Below are positions 59,097 through 63,639 of a stretch of DNA of 64,000 nucleotides, piece after piece. The stretch is from Candidatus Sulfopaludibacter sp. SbA3. Lineage in GTDB: Bacteria > Acidobacteriota > Terriglobia > Bryobacterales > Bryobacteraceae. The stretch lies in NCBI GenBank assembly GCA_945890485.1, contig CAMDCN010000018.1, positions 62,001 through 126,000 of the forward strand. Reading direction: 5' to 3'. Both the position numbers and the translations under genes were made by a program. Numbering within the stretch: the first letter of the stretch is position 1; each line of letters starts with the position of its first letter. The notes under the pieces were generated by a model that was not told the DNA's origin, searched no databases, and saw nothing but the letters and a program-made list of their open reading frames with translations.

Positions 59097-59462
59097 ATGC
59101 CGCAAATCGTCAACTCCCGCTTCGTCCTCGCCGTTCGCAACCTTGCAATCTCCACCCGCTATTACGTCGACGTCCTCGGCTTCGAGAAGGATCCCATCGA
59201 TGCCGAAGGCTGGAGCTTTCTAACCCGCGACTGCATCCGGCTCATGATCGGCGAATGCCCCGAGGATCGCTCTGCCAGTGAACTCGAAAACCACTCTTAT
59301 TTCGCGTACTGGAACGTCGAAGGCGTCGATGACCTCTACCGGGAGTTCGTCTCGAAAGGGGCCTTCCTCATGTCGCCTCCCACCGACAAACCCTGGGGCC
59401 TGCGCGAGTTCGGTCTCACTACCCCTGACGGCCATCGCATTACCTGCGGGCAAATCGTCTGA
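59097..59462 (+). CDS. VOC-family (glyoxalase-like) protein
   Basis: 121 residues with two beta-alpha-beta-beta-beta modules: VLAVRNLAISTRYYVDVLGFEKD and NVEGVDDLYREFVSKGA, ending in LTTPDGHRITCGQ. VOC enzymes use divalent metals for isomerisation, lyase or antibiotic-resistance reactions. The expected metal residues are only partly present (no clear N-terminal His). A role cannot be stated. Monocistronic. Confidence 0.85.
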   Translation: MPQIVNSRFVLAVRNLAISTRYYVDVLGFEKDPIDAEGWSFLTRDCIRLMIGECPEDRSASELENHSYFAYWNVEGVDDLYREFVSKGAFLMSPPTDKPWGLREFGLTTPDGHRITCGQIV

Positions 59463-59467
59463 AGGGT

Positions 59468-60214
59468 TCAGCCGAAACGCCCAGCGATGTAGTCCCCCGT
59501 CCGGGCATCCCGCGGATTCGTGAAAAGTTGCTCGGTCGGGCCATGCTCCACCACCTCCCCCAGCAGCATGAAGAAACACTCCGCGCTCACGCGCCGCGCC
59601 TGCGCCATGCTGTGCGTGACGATCACAATCGAATACTCCGCCGCAAGCCGGCCCAGCAACTCCTCAATCGCCAGCGTCGCCTTCGCGTCGAGTGCGGAGC
59701 AAGGCTCGTCCAGCAGAATGATCTCCGGCTTCAGCGGCAACAGCCGCGCAATGCAAAGGCGCTGCTGCTGTTCGAGGGCGAGTTCGGTCGCCGGGCTGTG
59801 CAGCCGGAAACGGAGATCTTCCCATAGGCCCACCGCTGTCAGCGCCTCTTCGACGGCAGCCTCCACCGCGGCATCCGGCTCATGAATCCGCAGCCCAAAG
59901 GCCACGTTCTCGAAAATCGAGATCGGCAGCGGGTTAGGGCGTTGGAACACCATACCCACCGCCCGCCGCAGAGCGATCAAGGAAACCTCGGGCGAGAAAA
60001 TCTCCTCGCCGAGAATTCGGATCGAGCCCTCGACGCGTACCGACGCATCCCGTTGGCTGATGCGGTTAAACGTGCGAAGCAGGGTAGACTTGCCGCAGCC
60101 GGAAGGGCCGATGAGCGCGGTGATCTGCCGCTCTCGAATGCGGACGCTCACGTTCCGAAGCGCTTGGAAGTCGCCGTACCAAAGGCTAAGCCCGTCCACC
60201 TCAATGCAGTTCAT
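59468..60214 (-). CDS. pstB: PstB-type phosphate ABC ATPase, degenerate signature motif
   Basis: 248 residues, overall PstB-like (LWYGDFQALRNV, RTFNRISQRD, GDYIAGRFG end). Walker A GPSGCGKS (36-43), Q-loop Gln91 (VFQRPNP), Walker B ILLDE (Glu170, then PCSALD) and switch His201 (VTHSM) are intact. The LSGGQ signature is LALEQ (145-149), lacking the Ser and Gly that contact ATP across the dimer. The partner gene just upstream has the opposite defect. ATG 60214 overlaps its stop (ATGA). Predicted to power phosphate import as half of a heterodimer. Confidence 0.92.
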   Translation of the reverse strand: MNCIEVDGLSLWYGDFQALRNVSVRIRERQITALIGPSGCGKSTLLRTFNRISQRDASVRVEGSIRILGEEIFSPEVSLIALRRAVGMVFQRPNPLPISIFENVAFGLRIHEPDAAVEAAVEEALTAVGLWEDLRFRLHSPATELALEQQQRLCIARLLPLKPEIILLDEPCSALDAKATLAIEELLGRLAAEYSIVIVTHSMAQARRVSAECFFMLLGEVVEHGPTEQLFTNPRDARTGDYIAGRFG

Positions 60215-60969
60215 CCGAAGGCCCCGCGAATGTAGTCGTAGGTCAGAGAGTTGGCCGGATGGTCGGAGAACATCGCCTCTGTGGTTCCCTGCTCGATGAT
60301 TGAACCGTTCCAGAGAAAAAGGGTGCGGTCGCTCAAGCGGCGCGCCTGCTGAATCAGATTCGTCACCAGGATGATGGTCAGCTTGGTCTTCAGCTCCCGC
60401 AGCACCTCTTCGATGCGCATCGTCGTCACCGGGTCGATCGCAATGGAAAACTCGTCCAAGCACAACAGATCCGGCGTATGCGAAAGCGCTCGTGCAATCG
60501 TGAGCCGTTGTTGTTGGCCGCCGGAGAGACGCGTCCCCAGTTGATCCAGGCGGTCCTTCACCTCGTCCCACAGAGCCGCCTGCCGAAGACACGATTCCAC
60601 CAGCCCGTCGAGATCCGCCCGCTTGCTCACCCCGGCCAGGCGCGGGGCGAAGGCGACATTGTCATAGATCGAGAGAGGCAAGCCCACCGGAAGCGGCGCC
60701 ACCATGCCTACCTTCCGGCGCAGATCATGTACATGCGGAGTCGTCAGCACCTGCTCGCCATCAAGCAGGACGCTGCCGGATACGCGGGCGTCCGCATTGA
60801 AGTCAATCGTCCGGTTCAAAATCCGCAGTAGCGACGACTTGCCGGATTGCGTCGGCCCGATAATCGAGAAGATCTCGAAGCGCGGCACCTCGAAGGAGAT
60901 GCCGTTCAGCGCGGTTTGGTCACCGTAGCGAAGCGTCAGGTCGGAGATGGCGAGAATGTTGTCTACCAA
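60211..60969 (-). CDS. pstB: PstB-type phosphate ABC ATPase, degenerate Q/H-loops
   Basis: 252 residues from TTG 60969, which overlaps the pstA stop and has GGAG upstream. Walker A GPTQSGKS (38-45) and LSGGQ (148-152, RLSGGQQQR) are intact. The Q-loop Gln is gone (VAPLP, positions 90-94, where PstB has VFQKP). The D-loop reads SIAID, not SALD. The switch His is Asn204 (VTNLI). Glu173 remains. This is the complement of the following PstB, so the two are predicted to pair with one active and one silent ATP site. The end TYDYIRGAFG is normal. Confidence 0.9.
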   Translation of the reverse strand: MVDNILAISDLTLRYGDQTALNGISFEVPRFEIFSIIGPTQSGKSSLLRILNRTIDFNADARVSGSVLLDGEQVLTTPHVHDLRRKVGMVAPLPVGLPLSIYDNVAFAPRLAGVSKRADLDGLVESCLRQAALWDEVKDRLDQLGTRLSGGQQQRLTIARALSHTPDLLCLDEFSIAIDPVTTMRIEEVLRELKTKLTIILVTNLIQQARRLSDRTLFLWNGSIIEQGTTEAMFSDHPANSLTYDYIRGAFG

Positions 60970-61883
60970 TTCTTCCGGCTCCGCAGATAGACGCGCAGGG
61001 CGATCGAAAGCGCATTCACCCCGAGAACCGTGGCGACCAGCACCACCGCAATGGCATACGGCAGGGCGTCGGAAACGTTGGGTACCTGCGTCGACACCGT
61101 GAACAAGTGAACGGAAAGCGCCATGCACTGGTCAAGCAGGCTGTAGGCAAAGAGATCGCCGCCCGCGATCGACTTGTAGAAAACGGCCCCCGTAAACAGC
61201 ACCGGCGCGGTCTCCCCCGCCGTGCGGGAAACCATCAGGATGATTCCGGTGAAGATTCCCGGCAACGCGTTCGGCAGCACAATGTGCCGCGTCGTCTGCC
61301 AGCGCGTCGCACCCAGATTCCAGGACGCTTCCCGGAACGACTGCGGGACGGATTTCAGCGCCTCGGTCGTGCTGGCGATAATCACCGGAAGCGACATGAC
61401 GGCCAAGGTCAGCGACGCCGCCAGAATCGACCGGCCAAAACCTGCGAACGCAACGAATGCGCCCAGCCCGAACAACGCATGCACAATGCTCGGCACCCCG
61501 GCCAGGTTGATCACCGCCAGACTAACGAGCCGGGAGAACCGTCCTGGCCGCGCGTATTCATTCAGGTAGACGGCGGCCAGAACCCCAACGGGCGTCGCCG
61601 CCGCCAACGAAGCGCCGACCAGGTACAGCGTGCCGAGCAGCGCGGGCCACAGGCCGCCCGAGCGCATGCCGTCGCGCGGCGATTCCACCAGAAAACCCCA
61701 CGAAAGCACCGGAGCGGCCTGCCAAACCAGATAGATCAGAATGGCGAACAGCGGCACCAGACTCAATATTAGAGTGGTCCCTAACAGCCGCCGGGCGATG
61801 ACTTCCTGACGATGCCGGCGGGCGATGGCCGGGGTCTCGCGGAAGCGAGGCGTAGTGGGACTGGGGGCCAGCGCCGGTTTCAT
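60963..61883 (-). CDS. pstA: phosphate ABC transporter permease PstA
   Basis: 306 residues, six TM helices after a basic N-terminus. The cytoplasmic coupling motif EASWNLGATRWQTTRHIVLPNALPGIFTGIILMVSRTAGETAPVLFTG is the MetI-type EAA loop of PstA. ATG 61883 is coupled to pstC (ATGA). It forms the membrane channel with PstC. Confidence 0.95.
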   Translation of the reverse strand: MKPALAPSPTTPRFRETPAIARRHRQEVIARRLLGTTLILSLVPLFAILIYLVWQAAPVLSWGFLVESPRDGMRSGGLWPALLGTLYLVGASLAAATPVGVLAAVYLNEYARPGRFSRLVSLAVINLAGVPSIVHALFGLGAFVAFAGFGRSILAASLTLAVMSLPVIIASTTEALKSVPQSFREASWNLGATRWQTTRHIVLPNALPGIFTGIILMVSRTAGETAPVLFTGAVFYKSIAGGDLFAYSLLDQCMALSVHLFTVSTQVPNVSDALPYAIAVVLVATVLGVNALSIALRVYLRSRKNW

Positions 61884-62788
61884 CGGGAACTCCTGCGGCG
61901 GCCGCGCACCAGAAAGTCTGCGGCGAGATTGAAAGCGGACGTTATCGCCAGCAGGTAGATGCCCACCAGAAAGAGAAGTTGATAGTGGTGGGAGCCCACC
62001 GATGCTTCGCCCAGTTCCGCCGCGATGGTGGCCGTCAACGTCCGTACCGAATCGAGCACACTCGTTGGGACGTGGACGCTGTGGCCCGTTGCCATCAGAA
62101 CCGCCATCGTCTCCCCGACCGCCCGGCCCAAACCCAGCAGCACGGCCGCCAGCAATCCCGGCCGCGCGGCGGGCAGCAGCACTCGGTAGACCAACTGCCA
62201 ACGGCTCGCCCCCAGGGCGAGTCCGGCCTCTCGATACGAATCGGGAACGGCTTTGAGAGCGTCCTCGCCCAGCGAGGCGATGATGGGGATGCTCATCAGC
62301 GCCAGCAGCAGCCCGCCGTTCAGAATGTTCAAGCCGATCGGCGCGCCAGTAACGGCGATGATCAGCGGGTTCATTACCATTAGGCCGATAAATCCCCAGA
62401 CGACAGAAGGAATCGCCGCCAGGATTTCAATCACCACCTTCAGGGTCTCGCGGCGGTACGGAACGCAGAATTCGGAAAGATAGATCGCCGAGCCGAGGCC
62501 GAACGGGATCGCGATCGCCATGGAAAGCAATGTCACGCTCGCGGTGCCGGCCAACAGCGCCAGCGTACCGTAGGCCGGCCCGGATTGGCTGGCGGGGTTC
62601 CAGTGGGTATCGAACAGAAAGTGGCCGAGCCGGAAGTCGCCCCCGGGCAGAAGGCCATAGGCCTCCCGGAACACAAAGAAGAAGATTCCAAACACCAGCA
62701 AAATAGCGCTCACGCCGCACAGGCGAATTACCCCTTCGATGAGGATTTCGGGCAAGCGGTCGAAAATGCTGCGGCGAAGGGGTTTCAT
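61880..62788 (-). CDS. pstC: phosphate ABC transporter permease PstC
   Basis: 302 residues, six TM helices. IAIPFGLGSAIYLSEF, EILAAIPSVVWGFIGL and the EAA loop EAGLALGASRWQLVYRVLLPAARPGLLAAVLLGLGRAVGETMAVLMATGH are all PstC-typical. ATG 62788 overlaps the pstS stop. With PstA it forms the translocation pathway served by two distinct ATPases. Confidence 0.95.
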   Translation of the reverse strand: MKPLRRSIFDRLPEILIEGVIRLCGVSAILLVFGIFFFVFREAYGLLPGGDFRLGHFLFDTHWNPASQSGPAYGTLALLAGTASVTLLSMAIAIPFGLGSAIYLSEFCVPYRRETLKVVIEILAAIPSVVWGFIGLMVMNPLIIAVTGAPIGLNILNGGLLLALMSIPIIASLGEDALKAVPDSYREAGLALGASRWQLVYRVLLPAARPGLLAAVLLGLGRAVGETMAVLMATGHSVHVPTSVLDSVRTLTATIAAELGEASVGSHHYQLLFLVGIYLLAITSAFNLAADFLVRGRRRSSR

Positions 62789-63639
62789 GCGACGGCGCTC
62801 GCTGGAACAAATCCGGTCCGCACGACGACTTGCTGGCCCGGTGGGGAGAGGGTCCAGTCCAGGTAGCGCTTTAGTTCACCGCTCGGCTGGCCCAAAGTGT
62901 AGACGTACAGGGGACGAGAAATCGGATAGCGCCCCGACAACGCATTTTCGAGCGTCGGCGCATAGGCCGGCTGGCCAGGGCCGGCTGACACGGCGAGCAT
63001 CTTGACCCGGTCGCTGTCGTATCCCATGCCGGAGTAGCCGAGCGCGGCTAGCGTTTCTCCAATCAATGAGACCACTTCCTTGGAACCATTCAGGTCGCGC
63101 GTGCCTTGGCGAAAATCTCCTTTGCTGCCCAGCAGAGCGCGACGGAAGTACTGTGCGGTGCCGGAGTTCGATTGGCGGCTGATCAGGATAATCTCCTCAT
63201 CGGGCAACCCCGCGCCCAGCTGCGACCACCGGGTGATCTGGCCGCCCGCGCCATAAATTGCGGCCAGCTGAGGAATCGTGATTTCGTTCAGAGGATTGTC
63301 GCGATGGACGTAAACCGCTAAGGCGTCATGTCCGATGATCCATTCCACCGGATCCACGCCGCGCTTCCTCCGGGCTGCTTCGCGCTCTTCCGGCTCAATC
63401 CGGCGGCTGGAGTTGGCCAGGTCCGCAGCGCCATCGATCAGCGAAGCCAACCCGGTGCCGGAACCGCCCCCGGAGACTTCTACCGAAACGGTAGGCTCCA
63501 CCTCGGCGTAGGCCTCGGCCCACGCCTGCGCCAGATTCACCACTGTATCTGACCCCGCCGAACGAATCACCGAACGGATCCGCGATCGGCCGCAGGAGAG
63601 GCTGGCGAACACCGCAAGAACAAGTCGGCGAGGAAGCAT
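62785..63639 (-). CDS. pstS: phosphate-binding protein PstS
   Basis: 284 residues. The leader RRLVLAVFASLSC could be Sec or lipoprotein (Cys16). Phosphate-ligand regions: SAGSDTVVNLAQAWAEAY, SGGGSGTGLASLIDGAADLANSSR and SRQSNSGTAQYF, as in the PstS-2/SphX-like branch. ATG 63639 has GGGGAGGG directly upstream. It leads the pst operon. No phoU or phoBR is present, and I find no convincing Pho box in the 60-nt gap to the upstream gene. Confidence 0.93.
   Translation of the reverse strand: MLPRRLVLAVFASLSCGRSRIRSVIRSAGSDTVVNLAQAWAEAYAEVEPTVSVEVSGGGSGTGLASLIDGAADLANSSRRIEPEEREAARRKRGVDPVEWIIGHDALAVYVHRDNPLNEITIPQLAAIYGAGGQITRWSQLGAGLPDEEIILISRQSNSGTAQYFRRALLGSKGDFRQGTRDLNGSKEVVSLIGETLAALGYSGMGYDSDRVKMLAVSAGPGQPAYAPTLENALSGRYPISRPLYVYTLGQPSGELKRYLDWTLSPPGQQVVVRTGFVPASAVA

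Follow-up and report, generated by a model that had tools for sequence, protein, structure and literature searches.

Our finding that the two adjacent ATPase genes of a Pst operon have lost complementary sets of motifs suggests that their products, here called PstB-a and PstB-b, form an obligate heterodimer in which one site hydrolyses ATP and the other is degenerate and holds it, a reading of the sequences to which we would assign a probability of somewhat above 0.8. The motif observation itself is confirmed in the window (the whole 64,000-nucleotide stretch of DNA analysed here), and the asymmetric heterodimer proposed for it in a first-pass annotation appears well supported. The same division of defects is found in every pair with readable motifs, which is beyond chance, and the pair represents an old and widespread subfamily, not a local oddity.

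The operon is encoded on the minus strand in the order pstS (62785..63639; the phosphate-binding protein, PF12849), pstC (61880..62788; membrane subunit, PF00528), pstA (60963..61883; membrane subunit, PF00528, its start set by an ATGA overlap with pstC), PstB-b (60211..60969; P0002, 252 aa, TTG start) and PstB-a (59468..60214; P0001, 248 aa), so that the ATPase pair closes it. Pfam assigns one PBP_like_2, two BPD_transp_1 and two ABC_tran proteins. The two ATPases are encoded together with pstS, a single pstC and a single pstA. The coordinates that the first-pass annotation gave for both ATPases are exact, with only the strand missing, and the overlaps of 4-7 nt that it reported at all junctions were re-measured as 4 nt (PstS/PstC), 4 nt (PstC/PstA), 7 nt (PstA/PstB-b) and 4 nt (PstB-b/PstB-a, ATGA). 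TIGR00972 (PstB) is the best NCBIfam model for both proteins; since both scores (317 bits for PstB-a and 273.6 bits for PstB-b) lie below the curated equivalog cut-off of 343.2 bits, they are to be regarded as PstB-family homologues and not as TIGR00972 equivalogs. No other PstB-like ATPase is encoded in the 7.1-Mb, 97% complete genome, where the two score 316.5 and 273.1 bits and the next match 148.7 bits, and both the operon and the homology suggest that the two serve phosphate import. No match to PhoU (PF01895) at 0.001 was found in this genome, while 13 of 14 control genomes have one; Pst seems to work here without its usual regulator. A small open reading frame on the plus strand (59097-59462), which by eye reads like a glyoxalase/VOC-fold protein, runs convergently towards PstB-a and stops 5 bases short of its 3' end.

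PstB-a retains Walker A (GPSGCGKS), the Q-loop (VFQ, with Gln91 at 59942..59944), Walker B (LLDEP, with Glu170 at 59705..59707) and the switch His (THS, with His201 at 59612..59614), and reads LALEQ instead of LSGGQ at residues 145-149 (59768..59782), all on the minus strand; its ABC signature is lost, precisely as first described. PstB-b, with all positions likewise on the minus strand, has kept Walker A (GPTQSGKS) and LSGGQ (residues 148-152, 60514..60528), and has lost both the Q-loop Gln, replaced by Pro92 (60694..60696) in the region VAPLPVGLP, and the switch His, replaced by Asn204 (60358..60360) in VTNL. These three points of the earlier description of PstB-b stand, and its D-loop (SIAID) is indeed altered, but the Asp of that loop (Asp179) is kept. 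Moreover, Glu170 of PstB-a had been taken for the single catalytic-type Glu of the pair, which is wrong: PstB-b keeps Walker B Glu173 (DEFSIAID, 60433..60456, within the Walker B/D-loop LDEFSIAID). Alignment of both proteins with E. coli PstB, on which the assignments of LALEQ, Pro92 and Asn204 also rest, gave motif registers identical to those read directly. The AF2 models are confident single-chain folds (pLDDT 93.0 for PstB-a and 91.0 for PstB-b).

Among 19 genomes of the window's genus, a TIGR00972 match at 1e-50 is present in 3, in each case a PstB-b/PstB-a pair; the other 16, some of them incomplete, show none at that threshold, a pattern which suggests that high-affinity phosphate uptake was either acquired by transfer or lost repeatedly. 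The pairs of the two congeners (G001 and G009; 93-95% identical) carry the same motif residues, and dN/dS values (NG86) of 0.036-0.058 over six comparisons among the three genomes indicate strong purifying selection. Profiles of the two proteins were applied to 396 genomes of the window's phylum. Core matches (at least 353 bits for PstB-b and at least 399 bits for PstB-a) numbered 38 in 37 genomes for PstB-b and 37 in 36 genomes for PstB-a, and 37 of the 38 PstB-b matches adjoin a PstB-a match by coordinates; the 38th (G176) has no strong PstB-a match, its contig ending inside a partial PstB-a. At a further locus (G410) PstB-a sits at the contig edge, and four more PstB-b matches (305-311 bits) are of the older type considered below. 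Sixteen genomes without a TIGR00972 match above 343.2 bits, picked by eye for their low scores, hold the pair in 13 cases and partial or other matches only in three (G084, G377, G072). The large scans scored 6 to 9 candidates per genome.

Searches with PstB-b peptide patterns confirmed at least 588 relatives, of which the best 80 were read as named loci. The record titles of these best 80 of at least 588 name Verrucomicrobiota, Myxococcales, Poribacteria, Acidobacteria, Eisenbacteria, Desulfobacteraceae, Planctomycetota, Gemmatimonadota, Gammaproteobacteria, Ca. Accumulibacter, Dechloromonas, Ca. Thiodiazotropha, Bacteriovoracaceae, Rhodothermales and others. Pairs in other phyla rule out an oddity of one genus or one phylum. 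Throughout this set (the best 80 of at least 588), PstB-b has Pro at the Q-loop and LSGGQ in 80/80 loci, the latter partly by construction since one of the two patterns searched for was GGQQQRLT, and Asn at the switch in all 79 that are readable. PstB-a lies downstream on the same strand in 78 of these 80 loci; in the remaining two the partner is a fragment at the contig end (L150), or the contig ends 2 bases after PstB-b (L103). The gap between the two genes is at most 150 nt in 72/79 loci of the set, with a maximum of 757 nt (L098). Within the same 80, PstB-a has kept the Q-loop Gln (78/78) and the switch His (75/75, three being cut short), and LSGGQ occurs in none of its 76 readable signatures. 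Of the pst genes ahead of PstB-b, the closest is PstA in 79 of the 80 (L136 is cut), and the full order PstS-PstC-PstA is seen in 70 of them.

Two further phyla were sampled, represented among the named loci by an Accumulibacter genome (L146, identical with G464) and a Pirellulaceae genome (L107, identical with G459), so that the sets overlap at these loci and possibly also at L142/G104 and L159/G451, whose contigs match in length. In the first phylum a core PstB-b is found in 24/299 genomes at 28 loci, 27 of which adjoin PstB-a; 25 of these are complementary, and the sequence of the other two breaks off ahead of the signature. The sole split pair (G611) has pstC-pstA-PstB-b on one contig (L209) and PstB-a, with the signature LSLEEQQK and the switch VTHN, on another contig of the same genome (L214), thus providing a natural test of the need for operon coupling. 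By sequence reading, a PP2C-phosphatase-like gene lies beside this PstB-b and a protein-kinase-like gene beside this PstB-a. In the second phylum a core PstB-b is present in 30/392 genomes, with PstB-a adjoining at 30/30 loci (one cut before the signature, another before the switch). The losses are complementary in every readable pair of the named loci, these two phylum samples and the older pairs, and among the loci examined there was no PstB-b-type or PstB-a-type gene whose partner is demonstrably absent from the genome. Whether the two defects always co-occur had been posed as a question with the first-pass annotation; among the loci examined they do, in the window's phylum as well as outside it. 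A scan of 12 named genomes with TIGR00972 revealed that five hold, in addition, a PstB above the cut-off and seven do not. Ca. Accumulibacter appositus (G464) is among the former. The seven include the complete chromosome of Dechloromonas sp. SSD3 (G466) and one Accumulibacter genome (G465), and in these two the pair is the best, though perhaps not the sole, PstB-like ATPase, further matches scoring 239 and 200 bits and lower.

When 246 full-length open reading frames were classed, 109 were in the PstB-a state, 113 in the PstB-b state (the switch residue of one being unreadable), 18 were canonical and six were third copies. At all 107 loci with both partners, the motifs give the heterodimer exactly one complete composite site and one incomplete one, and either homodimer no complete one; the classes at these loci are motif-defined, and independent support comes from the sets classed by profile score. 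In 107/107 pairs both partners retain Walker A (GxxxxGK(S/T)), the Walker B Glu and the D-loop Asp. LSGGQ is invariant in PstB-b (113/113, in this motif-defined class), and the fourth signature position of PstB-a is Glu in 107/109 proteins and Asp or Ala in the other two. This position corresponds to Gly551 of CFTR, the replacement of which by Asp blocks gating.

For the older type, 20 regions were fetched from the remaining low and intermediate cases; the reading covered 18 of the PstB-a-profile matches of about 336-374 bits (16 complete pairs) and a minority of the canonical-scoring PstBs. Two of the regions are core (L165, L183), one has PstB-a at the contig end (L172), one has a cut PstB-b (L171), and the other 16 are complete pairs, 16/16 of them complementary. 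Their PstB-b proteins replace the Q-loop Gln by Ala (15) or Ser (1) and have a VTNN switch, LSGGQ and a DEP Walker B, and their PstB-a proteins keep the Q-loop Gln and the switch His and have the signature L[ST][LGP]E[QE]. Since the third signature Gly is still present in four of these PstB-a proteins (L168, L176, L180, L181; LTGEQ or LSGEQ), the Gly-to-Glu replacement at position four seems to have preceded the loss of the third Gly. Their signatures are possible intermediates, and these relatives offer a route to studying how symmetry was lost.

In a tree of 86 rows calculated with the motif columns removed, a quick search without bootstrap in which many inner forks are weak, 31 PstB-a sequences are split off by one branch (SH-aLRT 94), and a second group (83) unites 31 PstB-b sequences with the six degenerate third copies; the 18 canonical PstBs fall elsewhere, L038 among them sitting immediately outside this second group. 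The tree fits a single old origin each of PstB-a and of PstB-b, and the hundred-odd loci would then not be independent events but show retention. The distances of the two partners are correlated, with a Mantel r of 0.878 over 96 dereplicated loci (those of the 107 left after removal of PstB-a sequences at least 95% alike; best of 1000 permutations 0.173) and of 0.833 for the 79 core loci (0.142 at most in as many permutations), and the nearest neighbour of both partners agrees in only 36 of these 79. At 107/107 loci the two genes share a strand, with PstB-b leading. The coupling-helix loops of the membrane subunits could be parsed in few matches (18/85 for PstA and 40/78 for PstC).

How the pair might work can be derived from the rule that an ABC site consists of the Walker A/B motifs and the Q- and H-loops of one NBD and the signature of the other (PMC7756269, in excerpt). 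By this rule either homodimer has zero complete sites and the heterodimer exactly one, and when the rule is taken together with E. coli PstB, in which the signature mutant Q160K and the Walker B mutant E179Q each abolish Pi uptake (PMC5775613, in excerpt), we infer one hydrolysing and one ATP-holding site. PstB-a and PstB-b would then be the two non-equivalent NBDs of one Pst importer, located under the PstC/PstA channel. Site I, formed by Walker A, the Q-loop, Glu170 and His201 of PstB-a with the LSGGQ of PstB-b, would be complete and hydrolyse ATP. Site II, formed by Walker A/B of PstB-b, devoid of the Q-loop Gln and the switch His, with the LxLEQ helix of PstB-a, should bind ATP because both Walker motifs are kept, and would hydrolyse it poorly or never, so that it would act as a long-lasting clamp or pivot. 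Import would be driven from site I at the cost of one ATP per cycle, and a complete site would be impossible in either homodimer. Assembly of the heterodimer is suggested by general ABC biochemistry, co-occurrence and correlated divergence; the choice of the hydrolysing site and the one-ATP cycle are proposed from general ABC biochemistry. In MRP1, Asn at the switch His of the active site keeps wild-type-like transport (PMC7756269, in excerpt), so that a His-to-Asn change alone need not kill a site, and site II may retain some hydrolysis given that Walker A, the catalytic Glu and the D-loop Asp of PstB-b are kept. Of the one complete and one dead site envisaged initially, the former stands by motif, but the latter is better called degenerate.

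It is unlikely that the two proteins form a heterodimer without strong asymmetry, in which LxLEQ, Asn and Pro are tolerated and both sites hydrolyse, perhaps at different rates. The Walker A motif, Walker B Glu and D-loop Asp kept in both proteins (107/107), and the tolerance for Asn in the active site of MRP1, would agree with this, but the Q-loop Gln, switch His and signature Gly of one site, i.e., its contacts to the gamma-phosphate, are lost together. These joint losses persist over wide divergence, all three contacts are kept in site I, and the fourth signature position of PstB-a, the equivalent of CFTR Gly551, is Glu in 107/109 cases. We consider it very improbable that PstB-b is mainly a signalling subunit for PhoU/PhoR with a minor part in transport. 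Conformations of E. coli PstB have been proposed to carry the phosphate signal (PMC5775613, in excerpt), and a PhoU-type gene is found in the fetched stretch of 63 of the 80 named loci (the best 80 of at least 588), yet the window genome has no PhoU match while its pair is under purifying selection, PstB-a has no canonical signature and no other PstB-like partner in that genome, and the LSGGQ of PstB-b, which a pure signalling subunit would not need, is invariant (113/113).

Two homodimers serving separate transporters or substrates would be reminiscent of the solved E. coli PstB, which is a homodimer, and we found no other support for them; judged by motif neither homodimer could form a complete site, the window operon has one pstC and one pstA, and gene order is fixed and divergence correlated, all of which leaves this arrangement with a very slim chance. 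Decay after gene duplication, or sequencing error, is hardly conceivable, even though both genes score below the TIGR00972 cut-off of 343.2 bits. The proviso of the first-pass annotation that the LALEQ or VTN residues might be errors was checked in G001 and G009, which have the same residues and render sequencing error very unlikely, and its opinion that the mutual fit is hard to explain by decay is one we share: decay is contradicted by dN/dS values of 0.036-0.058 and by the recurrence of the same states in many phyla.

The obligate one-site heterodimer that we favour is best seen against ABC transporters of known asymmetry. Exporters of the TAP, TM287/288 and BmrCD type have fused TMDs and NBDs and the exporter fold. 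Like the pair, they combine one complete and one conserved degenerate site across two proteins, and such degenerate sites are common in exporters (PMC7756269, in excerpt). The exporter hallmark, however, is a missing Walker B Glu (PMC7544095, in excerpt), which is kept in 107/107 PstB-b proteins here; the exporter-like architecture noted at first sight therefore holds for the one complete and one degenerate site, but not for the Walker B Glu and the D-loop Asp, which are retained. Among importers, RbsA and NupO likewise have one complete and one degenerate site, but on one fused polypeptide and with the second Walker A Lys lost (PMC11466899, in excerpt), whereas here two genes are involved and Walker A is intact. 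One-site importers are thus known, but for a phosphate importer, where the first-pass annotation named no precedent, no account of a degenerate, asymmetric or complementary PstB pair was found among the matches listed, in open-access titles and abstract openings, which is not proof of absence.

With respect to Pst itself, E. coli PstSCAB (PDB 9k3s, 9k3x) has the same operon parts as the window, and its PstB is the nearest solved sequence to both ATPases and the nearest solved fold to the PstB-b model (TM 0.91-0.93, 44% identity). In contrast to the window pair, these entries contain two PstB chains of one sequence, i.e., a homodimer with all motifs kept. Tandem PstBs of Firmicutes (E. faecalis PstB1/PstB2, B. 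subtilis PstBA/PstBB) resemble the window in having two adjacent pstB genes per operon. PstBA/PstBB have been modelled as a heterodimer, and the parts of the source devoted to them do not mention degeneracy in Pst (PMC11466899, in excerpt). In E. faecalis, Walker A, Walker B, LSGGQ and the H-loop are intact in PstB1 as well as in PstB2, and excess PstB2 replaces PstB1 (PMC12096839, in excerpt). The window pair therefore differs from the Firmicutes type, in which, according to this one excerpted source, both PstBs keep all four of these motifs; the same excerpt says that tandem pstB paralogues had not been the subject of a published study in any microbe. Since one-site importers and the PstBA/PstBB heterodimer model are already known, the new element is complementary degeneracy in Pst.

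Pst is a textbook nutrient importer, the E. coli form of which was solved with a PstB homodimer, and a branch of it, present in 37/396, 24/299 and 30/392 sampled genomes, appears to have dispensed permanently with one of its ATP sites. We are inclined to believe, with some reserve, that an old pan-bacterial Pst branch runs on the single ATPase site of an obligate PstB heterodimer, the second site being a permanent ATP clamp. If true, high-affinity phosphate uptake would cost these bacteria one ATP per cycle and not two, and an asymmetric cycle so far known mainly from exporters would apply to these Pst importers. The bacteria concerned include some Ca. Accumulibacter, which are polyphosphate accumulators, and Dechloromonas, so that a changed ATP cost of phosphate uptake is predicted for ecologically important organisms. 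Annotation as two 'PstB' genes conceals this arrangement, and the pair offers a natural system, with soluble subunits, in which to ask what purpose a degenerate ABC site serves.

Third PstB-like genes were observed at a few loci. In Poribacteria (L088:8481-9284, L090:8049-8852, L099:6858-7706, L100:8489-9286) the pair is followed first by another PstA-like gene along with a third PstB-like protein, and then by a PhoU-type gene. This third protein exhibits all three losses (Arg at the Q-loop, LS[IR]GQ and Asn at the switch), and the set is possibly a non-hydrolysing regulatory module. Another third PstB-like gene lies directly after PstB-a at L095:7399-8283 and L063:600-1484 (minus strand); the two sequences, identical in the tree, have LTTSM for LSGGQ, Thr at the Q-loop and Asn at the switch, and this copy is apparently wholly degenerate.
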